From: Prochlorococcus sp. AG-402-K10
GTDB taxonomy: Bacteria > Cyanobacteriota > Cyanobacteriia > PCC-6307 > Cyanobiaceae
Length of the DNA stretch: 64,000 nt
Assembly (NCBI GenBank): GCA_003216835.1
Contig: QCIF01000002.1
Span: forward strand, 124,001-188,000
Direction: 5' to 3'
Every line of letters starts with the position of its first letter. The first letter of the stretch is position 1. Positions 58,164-62,224 of the stretch are shown one piece after another. The position numbers and the translations under genes are program-made. The notes below the pieces were generated by a model. It searched no databases. It had not been told where the DNA came from and saw nothing but the letters and a program-made list of their open reading frames with translations.

Positions 58164-58523
58164 ATGAAAAACAAAACACTCATCTATTCTGATTTATCCA
58201 AAAAGCAACTGCAGCATCTTAAGGAATTTTATATTCAAACTAAAGTTAATTCTATGAGCAATGCAGAATTAAAAGAATTTGTATTAGAAATTATTTCTCA
58301 TCAAATAAACGACACTATAGGAAAAGAAGAAGAAATAGAAGCCTGGCAAGAAATGTCAGATTTTTTTGGCGAAAAATTCGAAATCATTATTCTAGAAATG
58401 CAGACAAAATATAAAGATAATGGGAGCTTACAAGATATTGAAGTTGATCCTCAAAAACTAAGGCAAGATTTACTGCAGAAAAACAATATCGAAAAAGAAA
58501 AACTGGATATGTGGGATGATTGA
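58164..58523 (+). CDS. Conserved-looking protein of unknown function
   Basis: A 119-residue acidic and helical protein with no membrane segment or signal peptide. It has S-D-L-S-K-K-Q-L-Q-H-L-K-E-F-Y and E-E-E-I-E-A-W-Q-E-M-S-D-F-F-G. I recall very similar small proteins in other Prochlorococcus genomes, but I do not know a domain name or role. The start at ATG 58164 has no strong ribosome binding site. It stands alone in a spacer-rich stretch. Confidence 0.7.
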   Translation: MKNKTLIYSDLSKKQLQHLKEFYIQTKVNSMSNAELKEFVLEIISHQINDTIGKEEEIEAWQEMSDFFGEKFEIIILEMQTKYKDNGSLQDIEVDPQKLRQDLLQKNNIEKEKLDMWDD

Positions 58524-58865
58524 TCTTTACAAAATTAATTAGGGTTTGAAGGTTTTCTAAATAATATTTATCTTTAAAACAAATCTATTGTCTCTAAGTT
58601 TGATCAATTTAAACCTATAAAAAAGATTTCGAAATGTACTAGAAACTATATATATTTTATGTTCTACAAACTCTTACATATAAACGGCTGAATACAATTC
58701 TAAATATTAGAACCAATGGCAATTAGAGGATCTTCCTCCTGGAATTCAGAGAGAATATACAAATTCAGAAGAAATACATTAGAAAATAAATGAAATTCAT
58801 ACGAATAAATTATTACTTGTGTATCAATTTTAAAGGCCTTGTGAATTAGTTTCTATCTTGACTAA
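58524..58865. other. 342-bp spacer with one tiny possible ORF
   Basis: This AT-rich stretch has no gene I can support firmly. A 25-codon frame runs from ATG 58716 to TGA 58793 (starts M-A-I-R-G-S-S-S-W-N). It is basic in its second half and has no ribosome binding site. The rest shows no clear hairpin or promoter. Confidence 0.45.
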
Positions 58866-58974
58866 GAATAAAATAAGAGGGCATTTGTTTGCCCTCTTCG
58901 AGTCTTATCCACTTCCTTGTCCACAAAGTCGGGGAAGTGCTTTTGACTCCTGAATTATTTCTACTCCAACTAAA
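58866..58974 (-). ncRNA. Predicted structured small RNA, copy 1
   Basis: On the minus strand an inferred RNA of about 105 nt would start near 58974, seven bases after a TATCTT box (58986-58981), and end at a 9-bp hairpin with loop AACAAA (58898-58875) followed by a U-rich tail. In front of the terminator is a nested stem: outer GAGTC/GACTC (58900-58904 with 58945-58949) and inner CACTTCC/GGAAGTG (58910-58916 with 58933-58939). Copy 2 at 59868 keeps every stem with paired changes. The strand is chosen because only the minus strand gives a U-run. I cannot place it in a named RNA family. Confidence 0.6.
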
Positions 58975-59084
58975 TCGGAAAAGATAGTCGTGACAACCAC
59001 AAAGCACTTCTACTCGGGTAGAAATACCCTATGAATTTCAAGTTAAAAGAGGGATAATGAAAGAGTAGAGACAAAGGAGGTTTT

Positions 59085-59243
59085 ATGAAACTCACTACTC
59101 CGTTAAATACTCTCAGAAATGTAACTTCAGATATTTGGAGAATGCATGATTTCAACTATCAATTACCTAAGGATATAAGGCAGGATTATTGGGTAAAAGA
59201 ATGTATAAACCACCCAACGAGTTCTCATTGCAAAGTTTACTAA
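59085..59243 (+). CDS. Small protein A of a three-member paralogous family
   Basis: A 52-residue ORF with a near-perfect ribosome binding site, AAAGGAGG, four bases before ATG. It begins M-K-L-T-T-P-L-N-T-L and ends Y-W-V-K-E-C-I-N-H-P-T-S-S-H-C-K-V-Y. The K-E-C-x2-H-P-T-x3-C-x2-Y pattern is shared with small protein C. It is not hydrophobic, so it does not look like a membrane toxin. Sequence match to C in the leader and both ends supports a real gene. The function is unknown. Confidence 0.68.
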   Translation: MKLTTPLNTLRNVTSDIWRMHDFNYQLPKDIRQDYWVKECINHPTSSHCKVY

Positions 59244-59260
59244 TTAAATAAGGAGGTCTT

Positions 59261-59428
59261 ATGAAACTAATTACTCCATTCACCATACTCAACAGGAAAG
59301 TCAATGAGATGGATTTGATAAGAGATGCTATGAAGTCAAAAAAATTCGCAACTGAAAGATTGCATGATGATTATAGAAAAATGTTCAAAAACAGAGAAGA
59401 TCGATCTGTAGTAAATGGGTATGTTTGA
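59261..59428 (+). CDS. Small protein B of a three-member paralogous family
   Basis: A 55-residue ORF with the ribosome binding site AAGGAGGTCTT before ATG. The N-terminal half M-K-L-I-T-P-F-T-I-L-N-R then N-E-M-D-L-I is almost that of small protein C, but the C-terminal half is different (lysine/arginine-rich, no cysteines). It is 17 bp downstream of A, on the same strand, and probably on the same transcript. It may have lost or replaced the Cys-His tail. Confidence 0.65.
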   Translation: MKLITPFTILNRKVNEMDLIRDAMKSKKFATERLHDDYRKMFKNREDRSVVNGYV

Positions 59429-59516
59429 TCTTTAAAGGAAGCATAATTGGACGAATAAAAAATTTGCTGAAATATAAACATTTGTAGAATGTTATTTCAT
59501 GAAGAAAGTTATTCAA

Positions 59517-59547
59517 TAAAAAAACTCCAAGTGATTTAACTTGAAGT
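59517..59547 (-). terminator. Intrinsic terminator (minus strand), left repeat unit
   Basis: Stem ACTCCAAGT (59524-59532) pairs with ACTTGAAGT (59539-59547), with one mismatch and a six-base loop. A seven-A run at 59517-59523 gives a U-tract on the minus strand. No minus-strand gene is seen just upstream of it, so the terminator is orphaned. Confidence 0.65.
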
Positions 59548-59563
59548 CTGTTGAAGTTATTTG

Positions 59564-59577
59564 AACTCCCCGGGCGG
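59564..59577. repeat. GC-rich 14-bp direct repeat, left copy
   Basis: AACTCCCCGGGCGG, identical to 62945-62958 and in the same orientation. It is 16 bases from the minus-strand terminator, as the right copy is (16 bases). Such a GC-rich word is very unusual in this AT-rich DNA. It could be an attachment or recombination site, or the 3' end of a shared transcript. Confidence 0.75.
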
Positions 59578-59648
59578 ACGTCGAAGTGATATTTCCTGAT
59601 GTTCCCTGACAGAAAATGAAATAAAAAAATAGAAGATTTGGGCATTTT

Positions 59649-59667
59649 CGCCACCATATCGCCACCA
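59649..59667. promoter_or_regulatory. Two CGCCACCA direct repeats, 11-bp period, before the AlpA-like gene
   Basis: CGCCACCA occurs at 59649-59656 and 59660-59667. The second copy ends one base before the ATG of the AlpA-like gene. Spacing of one helical turn and the position over the initiation region suggest an operator, possibly for autoregulation. No Shine-Dalgarno sequence is present there. Confidence 0.5.
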
Positions 59668-59668
59668 C

Positions 59669-59860
59669 ATGAACGCACCAAATCGTCCATTTTTAACCAT
59701 GAAAGAAGTATCAGATATACTTGGTATTTCAGTATCAACAATTGATCGTTTAATCAAAAGAGGACAATTTCCTCCAAAAGTAAAATTATCTCCAAGAAGA
59801 ATAGTTTTTATGAAAAACGAAATAGATGAATGGATTAAAAGTAAAAAAAATAACAACTAA
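59669..59860 (+). CDS. AlpA/excisionase-family HTH protein
   Basis: A 63-residue MerR-like winged helix-turn-helix of the AlpA type: F-L-T-M-K-E-V-S-D-I-L-G-I-S, then S-T-I-D-R-L-I-K-R-G-Q-F-P-P, K-L-S-P-R-R and N-E-I-D-E-W-I. Such proteins control integrase or satellite genes in prophages and integrative elements. ATG 59669 is preferred because the R-P-F-L-T segment belongs to the fold; ATG 59699 would cut it. No integrase lies in the window, which makes its target uncertain. Confidence 0.88.
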   Translation: MNAPNRPFLTMKEVSDILGISVSTIDRLIKRGQFPPKVKLSPRRIVFMKNEIDEWIKSKKNNN

Positions 59861-59867
59861 ATTTCTA

Positions 59868-59976
59868 AAAAATAAAGGGGCATTTGTTTGCCCCTTTCGA
59901 GTCTTGAACTTCTTTTCCTAAATGAGTGGTGTTTTGAAGTTCCTTTGACTCCTGTATTCTTTATACTCCTATCAAT
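59868..59976 (-). ncRNA. Predicted structured small RNA, copy 2
   Basis: The second copy of the element at 58866. On the minus strand a TATATT box at 59988-59983 would start an RNA near 59976, ending at the 9-bp hairpin 59897-59874 with the same AACAAA loop and a U-rich tail. Outer stem GAGTC/GACTC: 59899-59903 with 59947-59951. Inner stem GAACTTC/GAAGTTC: 59906-59912 with 59936-59942. Terminator-stem pairs differ from copy 1 at two positions, both compensated. It may also serve as the minus-strand terminator of an unknown transcript. Confidence 0.6.
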
Positions 59977-60085
59977 TAGAGAAATATAGTGCTGAGAACA
60001 ACAAAGCATTATTACTTGAGCAAAAACCACCATTTTAATTAAAGGTAAATGGGGTAAAAATATAAGTAGAGATCTAAGAGGTCTT

Positions 60086-60232
60086 ATGAAACTTAAAACT
60101 CCATTCACCATTCTCAATGGAAAATTCAATGAGATGGATTTCATCAGATATTCAATGAAAAGTAAAGAGTTTTGGGATAAAGAGTGCAAAGACCATCCAA
60201 CCAATAATCAATGCTTGATCTATTGCGACTGA
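60086..60232 (+). CDS. Small protein C of a three-member paralogous family
   Basis: A 48-residue ORF with a ribosome binding site AAGAGGT before ATG 60086. It begins M-K-L-K-T-P-F-T-I-L-N-G then N-E-M-D-F-I, like B, and ends F-W-D-K-E-C-K-D-H-P-T-N-N-Q-C, like A, so it combines both. It sits downstream of RNA copy 2 with the same spacing as A has from RNA copy 1. The Cys/His pattern could bind metal, but this is speculation. Confidence 0.68.
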   Translation: MKLKTPFTILNGKFNEMDFIRYSMKSKEFWDKECKDHPTNNQCLIYCD

Positions 60233-60307
60233 ACTTTTGTAATAAGCAAATAATTACTTTTACCTAAAAACAAAAGTATCGCCAGAAAGAACAATATTTT
60301 GAAAAAA

Positions 60308-62224
60308 TTAAGATCTTTTTTTAATATTTTTTAAATTTCTTAGTATCGTGTGCCCTAATTGCGCCCTATATAGGAACCTTGCATAAGTCCCATCTAAACT
60401 TTTAACAGGAAATATAAAATGTGTCTTGTTTATATATTCTCTCATCCCCTTTGTGACGGAACCAATTAAACCTTTTCCTCCCTCTCTCATAAGTTTGTCA
60501 TCATTCCAATCAATTCTTTTTCTTCCAGTAAAGATAGTTTTATTATCATCTTCTCCTCTTGTTAATATTAAAACTTGATCATGCTTTCCAGAAGGAGATT
60601 TTTCTTCGATATAAGTTAATAAGGTTTTAGGAAATTCATTATAAGAAAGTAACTGTTCATCAATCAATTCTCGTATAAAATCAACAACACTAATCTTATG
60701 ATCAAAATTAATAATTTTTTTCTCTAATTCATAATTAAGTAAAAACTTATTACCAATTGCCCTTTCTCTTTGTTCAATACTTACATTATCTTTATCAATT
60801 GCTCCAGAATCCACTGCTCTTGTATTTTCACTTTGAACATGAGCAAGATCTCCCCCCTTAGCAAATCTTAGGGATAATTCATGATCTTCAAATACATCTT
60901 TCCATCTTTCAAAAATTGTTCCAGGAACGCATAATTCAAAATATTCTGCATATGGTCTTGAACCAAACATTCTTGCTCTTTGAACATAAGTATTTTGCTG
61001 CATCTTTCCTTTTACATTTCTAGAAAAGAAGAATGTTAATAAATTTTCAAAAGTTAATCCCCTTGAGACAATATTGCCACCGATAGCAAAAGTAAATAAG
61101 ACCTGAGGTTTACATGCCCGTAAAACATTTTCTTTATCTTTTTTACTATTTAAAATTAATACTTGATTCTGACCTATATACCTCAACAAATATTTCAATA
61201 TACTTTCAACTTCAGAAGTCTCAAAAAGTCCACTTGCAATTTTTATTAATTCATTAAGTATTCTTTGATCATGATTAGTCAATCTATGTAAAACAGAATC
61301 AACTAGTTTTTTATCCTCTTCATGATCTCTTACTCTCCCTGCAGTATGAATCAACATTGAGTAACCTTTTGGTTCTACAGATGGATAGTTCAAGTAAGCA
61401 GTCCTAAGCATGAATCTTAAAACTGCATGTCTTAGAAATTTGGGATCATCATATTCTTCAGGAAGAATATTTAAAATATATCTATTCTCAGTTTCTTGTA
61501 TATTATCTGGGAAAAAGAATTCTCTGCCTTTATATTTTTGATGACTATCTAAATAAACCCAATGTTCTGACTTATTTAAAAATGTATTGTTTAAATCTAA
61601 TCTGCCTGGAGTAGCAGTAACACCGATATATATTCCTCCTTCTTCTAGTTTGACAAGTTCACCAAGTCTTTTATGTATTGCAGTTGATTCGGCATCTTTT
61701 TTATTAATGTTGGTATTAGGAGTTGCAAAATCTGCTTCATCATCAAGGATTACTCTATCTTTAAAATTTCTTGCATTAACAATAAGTTTTTTAAGTCTAA
61801 CTGAGTTCTTTCTGCAAAATACAACTCTTGGAATGTTTAATTTTAATTGTTCTGGTAACAATTCTTCTACTTGTGAGTCTCTTAGTGGAGATGGGTTTAA
61901 TTGACAAGCATTTAAAAACCTATCAAAATTTTGAGACTCTAATTCTGTATTATCATTAACAACAACAAAAATAGTTTTAAACCCATAATCAAGTAATTTA
62001 CAAGTTAAAGCAATCATTAATTCAGTTTTGCCAGATTGTGGTTCACCATAAATAACAAATGAATTTCCTTGCTTTTTGTCAATTACATCAATTGCTTGCT
62101 CAACTCCATTTTCTATAATTTCTGTATTAAAGTTACTTTCCTTTAACGCATTTATTCTATTTATATATCTATCATCAGATTTCTCTAAATTAAAAGAATT
62201 AATAAGTTCCTCAGGTGTAATCAT
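60308..62224 (-). CDS. Z1-domain SF2 helicase-like ATPase
   Basis: A 638-residue P-loop ATPase. Walker A is G-E-P-Q-S-G-K-T (60-67), Walker B is V-I-L-D-D-E-A-D-F (158-166), and motif III is T-A-T-P (203-206). The C-terminal half has G-G-N-I-V-S-R-G-L-T-F-E-N-L and Q-N-T-Y-V-Q-R-A-R-M-F-G, the hallmarks of the Z1 domain. Z1 proteins are known mainly from restriction-like and conflict loci, usually beside a nuclease. It is divergent from the 194-residue gene with a 56-bp shared promoter region. No methylase or recognisable nuclease is in the window. Confidence 0.85.
   Translation of the reverse strand: MITPEELINSFNLEKSDDRYINRINALKESNFNTEIIENGVEQAIDVIDKKQGNSFVIYGEPQSGKTELMIALTCKLLDYGFKTIFVVVNDNTELESQNFDRFLNACQLNPSPLRDSQVEELLPEQLKLNIPRVVFCRKNSVRLKKLIVNARNFKDRVILDDEADFATPNTNINKKDAESTAIHKRLGELVKLEEGGIYIGVTATPGRLDLNNTFLNKSEHWVYLDSHQKYKGREFFFPDNIQETENRYILNILPEEYDDPKFLRHAVLRFMLRTAYLNYPSVEPKGYSMLIHTAGRVRDHEEDKKLVDSVLHRLTNHDQRILNELIKIASGLFETSEVESILKYLLRYIGQNQVLILNSKKDKENVLRACKPQVLFTFAIGGNIVSRGLTFENLLTFFFSRNVKGKMQQNTYVQRARMFGSRPYAEYFELCVPGTIFERWKDVFEDHELSLRFAKGGDLAHVQSENTRAVDSGAIDKDNVSIEQRERAIGNKFLLNYELEKKIINFDHKISVVDFIRELIDEQLLSYNEFPKTLLTYIEEKSPSGKHDQVLILTRGEDDNKTIFTGRKRIDWNDDKLMREGGKGLIGSVTKGMREYINKTHFIFPVKSLDGTYARFLYRAQLGHTILRNLKNIKKRS

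Follow-up and report, generated by a model that had tools for sequence, protein, structure and literature searches.

A multi-copy structured small RNA of Prochlorococcus and its divergent small-protein gene

Prochlorococcus has few regulatory proteins and many small RNAs (sRNAs), the roles of which are mostly open (PMC2518516). Among the Yfr RNAs of strain MED4, Yfr2–Yfr5 are characterized by the 5' end GUGUGUAGGAG and by a 5' hairpin whose loop holds a GGAAACA repeat (PMC1242208; PMC2518516) and are said to be under the control of a GntR-type factor (PMC6778093). Yfr11 and Yfr16 are a pair of similar sRNAs located in islands, and Yfr13 is a 101-nt RNA of variable location that occurs in high-light strains and in NATL1A/2A (PMC2518516). 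Yfr103 is a paralogous picocyanobacterial sRNA of 290–328 nt that has an imperfect palindrome between -29 and -58 (PMC5069720). We analyzed a 64,000-nt stretch of Prochlorococcus sp. AG-402-K10 (contig QCIF01000002.1, positions 124,001–188,000; hereafter the window) and compared a recurring element on its minus strand with these systems.

Two structured RNAs and their relatives

The window carries two members of one family of structured RNAs of approximately 105–110 nt (Table 1). Both display the same order of parts from 5' to 3', namely a single-stranded 5' end, an outer GAGUC/GACUC stem, an inner ACUUC/GAAGU stem and a 9-bp terminator. Read on the minus strand, copy 1 consists of TATCTT, CAGGAGTC, GAGTC...GACTC, CACTTC...GAAGTG and the terminator AAGAGGGCA-AACAAA-TGCCCTCTT, and copy 2 of TATATT, CAGGAGTC, GAGTC...GACTC, GAACTTC...GAAGTTC and the terminator AAAGGGGCA-AACAAA-TGCCCCTTT. 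AGGAG occurs twice within the 5' stretch of each copy and a T-rich sequence follows the terminator hairpin. A first-pass annotation of this DNA had reported the recurring layout, including the TATCTT/TATATT boxes, the 9-bp terminator and the identical six-base loop, and all of this is seen in the sequence. Its account of the stems also stands: two terminator pairs differ between the copies with both partners altered each time, and the inner stem covaries at one pair (C-G to A-U). The statement that both copies have the same length (about 105 nt) holds roughly, the model matches being 111 and 114 nt rather than identical. That annotation did not include the small-protein gene in the opposite direction, the palindrome between the two genes, the number of copies or the occurrence in other genera, all of which are described below.

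Table 1. Positions of the RNA copies, control sites and divergent genes within the window
Feature	Position	Strand	Basis
sRNA copy 1	58866..58976	-	R1 134.3 bits, R2 127 bits, fold, terminator scan
sRNA copy 2	59865..59978	-	R1 89.9 bits, R2 88.4 bits, fold, terminator scan
Presumed -10 box TATCTT, copy 1	58981..58986	-	sequence; conserved in relatives
Presumed -10 box TATATT, copy 2	59983..59988	-	sequence
Palindrome core TACTCGGGTA (minus: TACCCGAGTA), 24 nt from -10 box; presumed activator site	59011..59020	.	
Type-2 palindrome core TACTTGAGCA (minus: TGCTCAAGTA), likewise at 24-nt spacing, copy 2	60013..60022	.	
AGGAGG ribosome-binding site of divergent gene (copy 1)	59075..59080	+	sequence
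Divergent small protein, 52 aa, subtype b, CP12-like tail ECINHPTSSHCKVY	59085..59243	+	profile; subtype-b selection test
Second small protein, 55 aa, subtype a (MKLITPFTIL...), without CP12-like tail	59261..59428	+	
Divergent small protein of copy 2, 48 aa, CP12-like tail ECKDHPTNNQCLIYCD	60086..60232	+	

On the minus strand both copies folded better than dinucleotide shuffles (z = -4.5 and -4.7; 0 of 200 shuffles as good in each case), and the same was true of the plus strand (z = -5.0 and -4.2; again 0 of 200 each), so the strand is not given by folding alone. It was assigned from the terminator hairpins. A consensus scan of 58800–60150 returned four terminator-like sites (0.5 expected), two of which are these hairpins, both picked on the minus strand where the RNAs had originally been placed. 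A corresponding scan of this interval for sigma-70-type promoters found none at either copy (four elsewhere, 4.5 expected).

Paired changes were examined in 88 distinct sequences from 84 chosen loci. When these were fitted to the model, pairing held in 89.8% of cells, 18 of the 26 pairs had altered partners on either side and double-changed cells numbered 101; none of 500 shuffles was as high on any one of the five measures, and scores fell when partners were slid. The terminator accounts for eight of the 18 double-changed pairs and the outer and inner stems for three each. The model's first hairpin (four pairs, 80.4% of cells paired) is not claimed as structure. In a plain MAFFT alignment on which the 24 pairs of the copy 1 structure were imposed, pairing held in 80.7% of cells compared to 38–44% for slid partners, and 72 cells are double-changed compared to a shuffled mean of 28 (0 of 500 as high); 16 pairs show a double change compared to 12.2 in shuffles (15 of 500), with one slid version also giving 16. 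Support from paired changes is weaker on this unfitted alignment than on the model-fitted one and, because the sequences are related by descent, the double changes are not independent events. The earlier proposals of selection on RNA structure and of probable structured small-RNA genes on the minus strand agree with the 88 aligned relatives, in which stem changes are paired beyond shuffles rather than random.

The distribution of the family was determined with two covariance models, R1 (built from 12 sequences) and R2 (which includes distant members). In the window genome there were two strong covariance-model matches (E = 3.4e-23 and 1.8e-14), the next best having E = 0.12. A decayed third RNA (24.6 bits, E = 0.12) was located in the same genome at G000:C4:80067, with its protein gene intact. 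A query of copy 1 plus its promoter matched 152 of 200 genus genomes at E ≤ 0.01, although the weakest of these may match the promoter or terminator only. R1 matched 77 of the 87 genomes of the genus that are at least 90% complete (E ≤ 0.001), with two to four matches in 33 of the 77. Across the family, R1 was detected in 67 of 300 genomes (4 of 40 genera) and R2 in 99 of 300 (9 of 37 genera; E ≤ 1e-4), the weakest R2 matches perhaps resting largely on the terminator, and a class-wide search matched 6 of 117 genomes, all six within the same family. An exact-pattern search of named species genomes returned 67 stretches, 65 from Prochlorococcus and two on one uncultured Synechococcaceae contig, in agreement with the guess of a picocyanobacterial origin made in the first-pass annotation; the covariance search over picocyanobacteria that it had named as a check found the family in most of the genus genomes searched. 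Genomes that we take to be MED4, MIT9301, MIT9312 and MIT9215 had one, three, two and three matches, respectively, with the MED4 member at 1348295–1348400 (+), so that the genus is that of the high-light strains. MED4 was further recognized by Yfr2–5, Yfr10 and Yfr18 motifs at the coordinates published for them. The ungapped sequence GGAGTAGAAATAATT occurred seven times in six genomes, every time inside an sRNA copy.

Some members in other genera keep the outer stem and have a GCAC/GUGC inner stem and an enlarged inner loop, resulting in forms of 138–153 nt. In another genus the RNA lies near different small proteins, one of them with a C-terminal two-cysteine tail. Two family RNAs were also found back to back, about 64 nt apart, in another genus (L135:151-425, L149:546-824), the second RNA occupying the position that the protein gene has in the window's genus.

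Divergent small-protein genes, palindrome and genomic context

Partner genes were sought in 138 distinct copies outside other genera (111 from genome searches and 27 from named contigs), of which 131 had the minimum of 300 nt upstream required for counting an ORF of at least 40 aa. An oppositely oriented ORF with an ATG and an AGGAGG site was located about 107 nt from the RNA start in 117 of the 131; all 117 matched the peptide profile and 111 lay at 106–109 nt. At random positions any such ORF was encountered in 87 of 5000 draws, a few of which fell on loci of insufficient length, and in 116 of 5000 without the short loci. The stretch of approximately 100 bp separating RNA and ATG is conserved. 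Fourteen copies, including the single copy of MED4, were without a recognized protein gene, and at two loci in two other genomes (L185, L186) the protein and palindrome were kept without an RNA match.

The proteins of the divergent arm are 48–60 aa long and comprise three subtypes (a, b and c). The ratio pN/pS was 0.45 for subtype a (13 of 22 distinct sequences), 0.21 for b (25 of 43) and 0.10 for c (37 of 38), calculated on equal-length sequences only and excluding eight unclassed sequences and pairs with fewer than three differences. These ratios point to purifying selection on the divergent small protein and, being low, indicate that the ORFs likely encode real proteins. The C-terminus of subtypes b and c, and that of the protein at 60086, reads C-x2-H-P-x4-C-x-[VIL]-Y, which is the spacing of the tail of the genome's own CP12 (FCEANPDEPECLVYDD; C-x2-[NH]-P-x4-C-x-[VI]-Y), whereas subtype a has no such tail. 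The Pfam CP12 model gave no hit at E ≤ 1 for the three window proteins, nor at these loci, and a PF02672 search of the genome recovered CP12 itself and, at another place, a single 53-aa protein with a weak match; as the model matches none of the window proteins, the likeness to CP12 is one of motif only. A search of solved structures with the peptides gave six hits, the best with E = 0.31 and none meaningful. A 53-aa protein with a CP12-like tail (YWDDVCKKNPSKKECLVYCD) was observed in the same genome at G000:C4:63799-63879 (L209).

The palindrome between the two genes has the core TACYCGAGTA, which is replaced by TGCTCAAG[CT]A in copy 2 and in MED4. A distance of 24 nt separates its end from the -10 box in 104 of the 106 copies with an exact core and a recognized -10 box, among them eight of nine with the TGCTCAAG core; 32 of the 138 copies have no exact combination of core and -10 box. 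Common descent of the copies accounts for part of this constancy in spacing. If the -10 box is placed at -12 to -7 relative to the presumed start, the core is centered at about -41.5, a usual place for an activator overlapping the -35 region, and no consensus -35 partner was found. Elsewhere in the window genome, a 22-base exact match to the -10 region of the module (L003:1460-1665; G000:C1, from about 120260) has a palindrome, TACTCGAGTA, upstream and an unrelated 32-aa membrane-like ORF after it. An ORF close to the MED4 RNA (LFRI.ALNVLMLL; L088:1294-1389) resembles this 32-aa ORF, and ORFs of this type may be a second gene type under the same regulator.

The downstream flanks of 135 of the 138 copies fell into 32 groups without detectable similarity between groups (largest group 51), indicating that the unit occupies many contexts. 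A gene for an AlpA-type excisionase/regulator (59669–59860, +) lies between the two modules of the window, which suggests that they sit in a mobile island. Beside the modules is a 638-aa Z1-domain ATPase (60308–62224, -) that resembles MzaC and PADLOC Helicase_II and is possibly a defence gene, and a 119-aa protein at 58164–58523 (+) matches Pfam DUF7326 (E = 5e-15). The RNA had no match in 50,697 phage records and viral contigs gave no exact match of the RNA pattern. One viral-collection contig (L277:1-1844) carries a complete module together with, by eye, an apparent serine tRNA, a membrane-protein ORF and phage-like replication genes; this contig is most likely an assembly chimera and less probably the result of transfer. 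With no match in the phage records and the lone viral-contig module most likely chimeric, a phage origin was rejected.

Possible functions and alternative readings

At the level of sequence, the analysis establishes an RNA family with paired structure, a protein gene at near-fixed spacing and under purifying selection, a palindrome at constant spacing and a presence in many contexts. On balance, we lean towards interpreting these parts as a two-gene, bidirectional, activator-controlled regulatory cassette of Prochlorococcus that comprises a trans-acting sRNA and a 48–60-aa protein. An activator would bind the palindrome and switch on both arms under some stress, the RNA would pair in trans via its conserved unpaired 5' segment GGAGUAGAAAUAAUUCAGG, as is thought for other Yfr RNAs, and the small protein would act separately, its CP12-like tail perhaps serving in the redox control of carbon fixation.

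When eight genomes were searched for sites complementary to the 5' segment, 54 were found (13 of them sRNA genes) compared to 21 for the reversed pattern, a two-fold excess in which shared orthologous sites are counted several times. Among ten target loci examined the sites were mostly inside or antisense to coding sequence, and the complement scan of the eight genomes yielded no convincing common target. A gene that we presume to be pheT has a sense site 40 nt in, where a variant of the pattern recurs in four of the eight genomes; the best duplex of this site with copy 1 was -21.6 kcal/mol and was matched by 11 of 300 shuffles, making the pheT-like gene a weak, pre-selected candidate. A leader element AGGAGUAGARAUA..AGGAG common to the RNA and the mRNA was also considered and was rejected, a third of shuffles aligning as well.

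Alternative roles based on pairing were assessed with duplex tests on 72 of 90 distinct copies (score at least 60, ATG at 95–115 nt, ORF of at least 40 aa). The 5' AGGAGUA could pair with UACUCCU of Yfr1/Yfr10, as Yfr2 does via GUGUGUAGGAG, in which case the RNA would be a sponge that frees the targets of Yfr1. The Yfr1 of this genome carries CAUACUCCUCACACAC, the best duplex of the 5' segment averages -9.7 kcal/mol compared to -6.8 kcal/mol for shuffles (72 copies), and Yfr2 is reported to interfere with Yfr1 (PMC6778093). We nevertheless consider a sponge unlikely, and a rival rather than a finding because 15% of shuffles pair equally well; in addition, several copies from other genera have UAGUAGUA instead, and AGGAG also resembles an ordinary ribosome-binding site. 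A divergent RNA and small ORF is likewise the layout of IstR-1/TisB and OrzO/ZorO, which the locus recalls, and the RNA might accordingly silence the mRNA of the divergent small protein by base pairing as in a type I toxin-antitoxin-like pair. This is distinctly improbable here, as the duplex of the RNA with its own mRNA barely exceeds chance in the 72 copies (-30.3 compared to -27.9 for shuffles, of which a third do as well), on which ground cis antisense pairing was rejected; the proteins, moreover, look polar by eye and are conserved rather than being short hydrophobic peptides, and RNA and protein also occur apart.

The remaining readings deny the element a regulatory RNA. In some copies AGGAG stands at start-codon distance before AUA or AUG, and in MED4 Yfr11 and Yfr16 a similar stretch is followed by a 13-aa ORF, as would be expected if the RNA were the mRNA of a tiny peptide; the copies shown, however, mostly have AUA and not AUG, a single-base indel shifts the frame in some and several copies from other genera read AUG AAU UAG, which leaves such an mRNA barely plausible. 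The many copies in unrelated contexts, some of them decayed, would fit a passive mobile repeat (REP/MITE-like) or a bare terminator, but the promoter region and the unpaired 5' segment are conserved, the structure is maintained by double changes and the element is coupled to a protein gene under selection, and we regard passivity as very improbable.

The two-gene cassette could be extended to a system in which a single operator governs an sRNA of the Yfr1/Yfr2 network and a mimic of the CP12 tail that alters the control of GAPDH/phosphoribulokinase, its gain and loss tuning carbon flux between ecotypes or during phage attack; this is a speculation that we think improbable. With an sRNA that most genomes of the genus carry, frequently more than once, together with a protein gene at tightly kept spacing and a shared palindrome, the cassette would constitute a compact, testable regulon. 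It suggests a movable regulatory unit of small size in a photosynthetic microbe that ranks among the most abundant in the ocean. If the tail binds GAPDH as CP12 does, mobile DNA would be linked to the control of carbon fixation.

Comparison with described RNAs

A comparison with Rfam, also proposed in the first-pass annotation, revealed no family match: Rfam 15 gave no match at gathering score in the whole window, and seven sub-gathering matches (best E = 1.3) in 58400–60500 at E ≤ 10. On 13 MED4 stretches covering Yfr2–Yfr6 and Yfr8–Yfr21, R1 and R2 had three weak matches each (best E = 0.17 and 0.22, respectively), none of them at a published sRNA on its strand. The MED4 member overlaps no Yfr1–Yfr21 coordinate in the tables of PMC1242208 and PMC2518516, and the coordinates of Yfr7 (6S RNA) and Yfr1 in the tabulated part of PMC1242208 are clear of it. 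The Yfr1-motif loci of the window genome (L167, L168) gave no match, and the Yfr1/Yfr10 motif ACUCCUCACAC has three exact places in this genome, none at the loci described here.

Yfr2–Yfr5 of MED4 resemble the present RNA in being multi-copy sRNAs (about 90 nt) at changing loci with AGGAG near the 5' end and a terminator of their own. In contrast, GGAAACA and GUGUGUAGGAG are present in MED4 yfr2–5 and absent from both window copies, neither model matches there, and no palindrome of the window type occurs within the 110 nt upstream of MED4 yfr2–5, for which reason GntR/CGRE1 control as for yfr2 was rejected. Yfr11 and Yfr16 share with the window RNA a 5' GGAG..UAGAAAUGAUU, a weak resemblance as three other MED4 places fit the gapped pattern, and small proteins similar in appearance (MKIQTPFTVL..., MYCGNSYKH...) are encoded divergently from Yfr16; the two RNAs differ in length (138 and 149 nt) and stems, with no model match at either locus. 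Both (L108, L109) contain, besides a ribosome-binding site, an ORF of 13 codons, the two products being alike (MIDSPPEKFIRLV and MIDSPPENLMRLV), and may therefore be tiny mRNAs. Yfr13 is similar in length and unrelated in sequence and fold, again with no model match. Homology to Yfr13 and to Yfr11/Yfr16, suggested by length, islands and neighbours, was rejected on comparison with the MED4 loci. Yfr103 is set apart by length alone, the window copies being 111 and 114 nt. Loci of the IstR-1/TisB type are alike in the divergent sRNA and small ORF; they differ in that no RNA-mRNA complementarity clearly above shuffles was found here.

The Yfr literature examined yielded no description of this RNA or of its pairing with a protein gene. 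An earlier name in a transcriptome paper is possible, and a 2014 MED4/MIT9313 transcriptome study may have named the MED4 copy. Compared with Rfam 15 and with Yfr2–Yfr6 and Yfr8–Yfr21 of MED4, the sequences apparently represent a widespread sRNA family that is undescribed. The RNA is a member of no family tested and resembles, in its layout, a multi-copy island sRNA of the Yfr kind.
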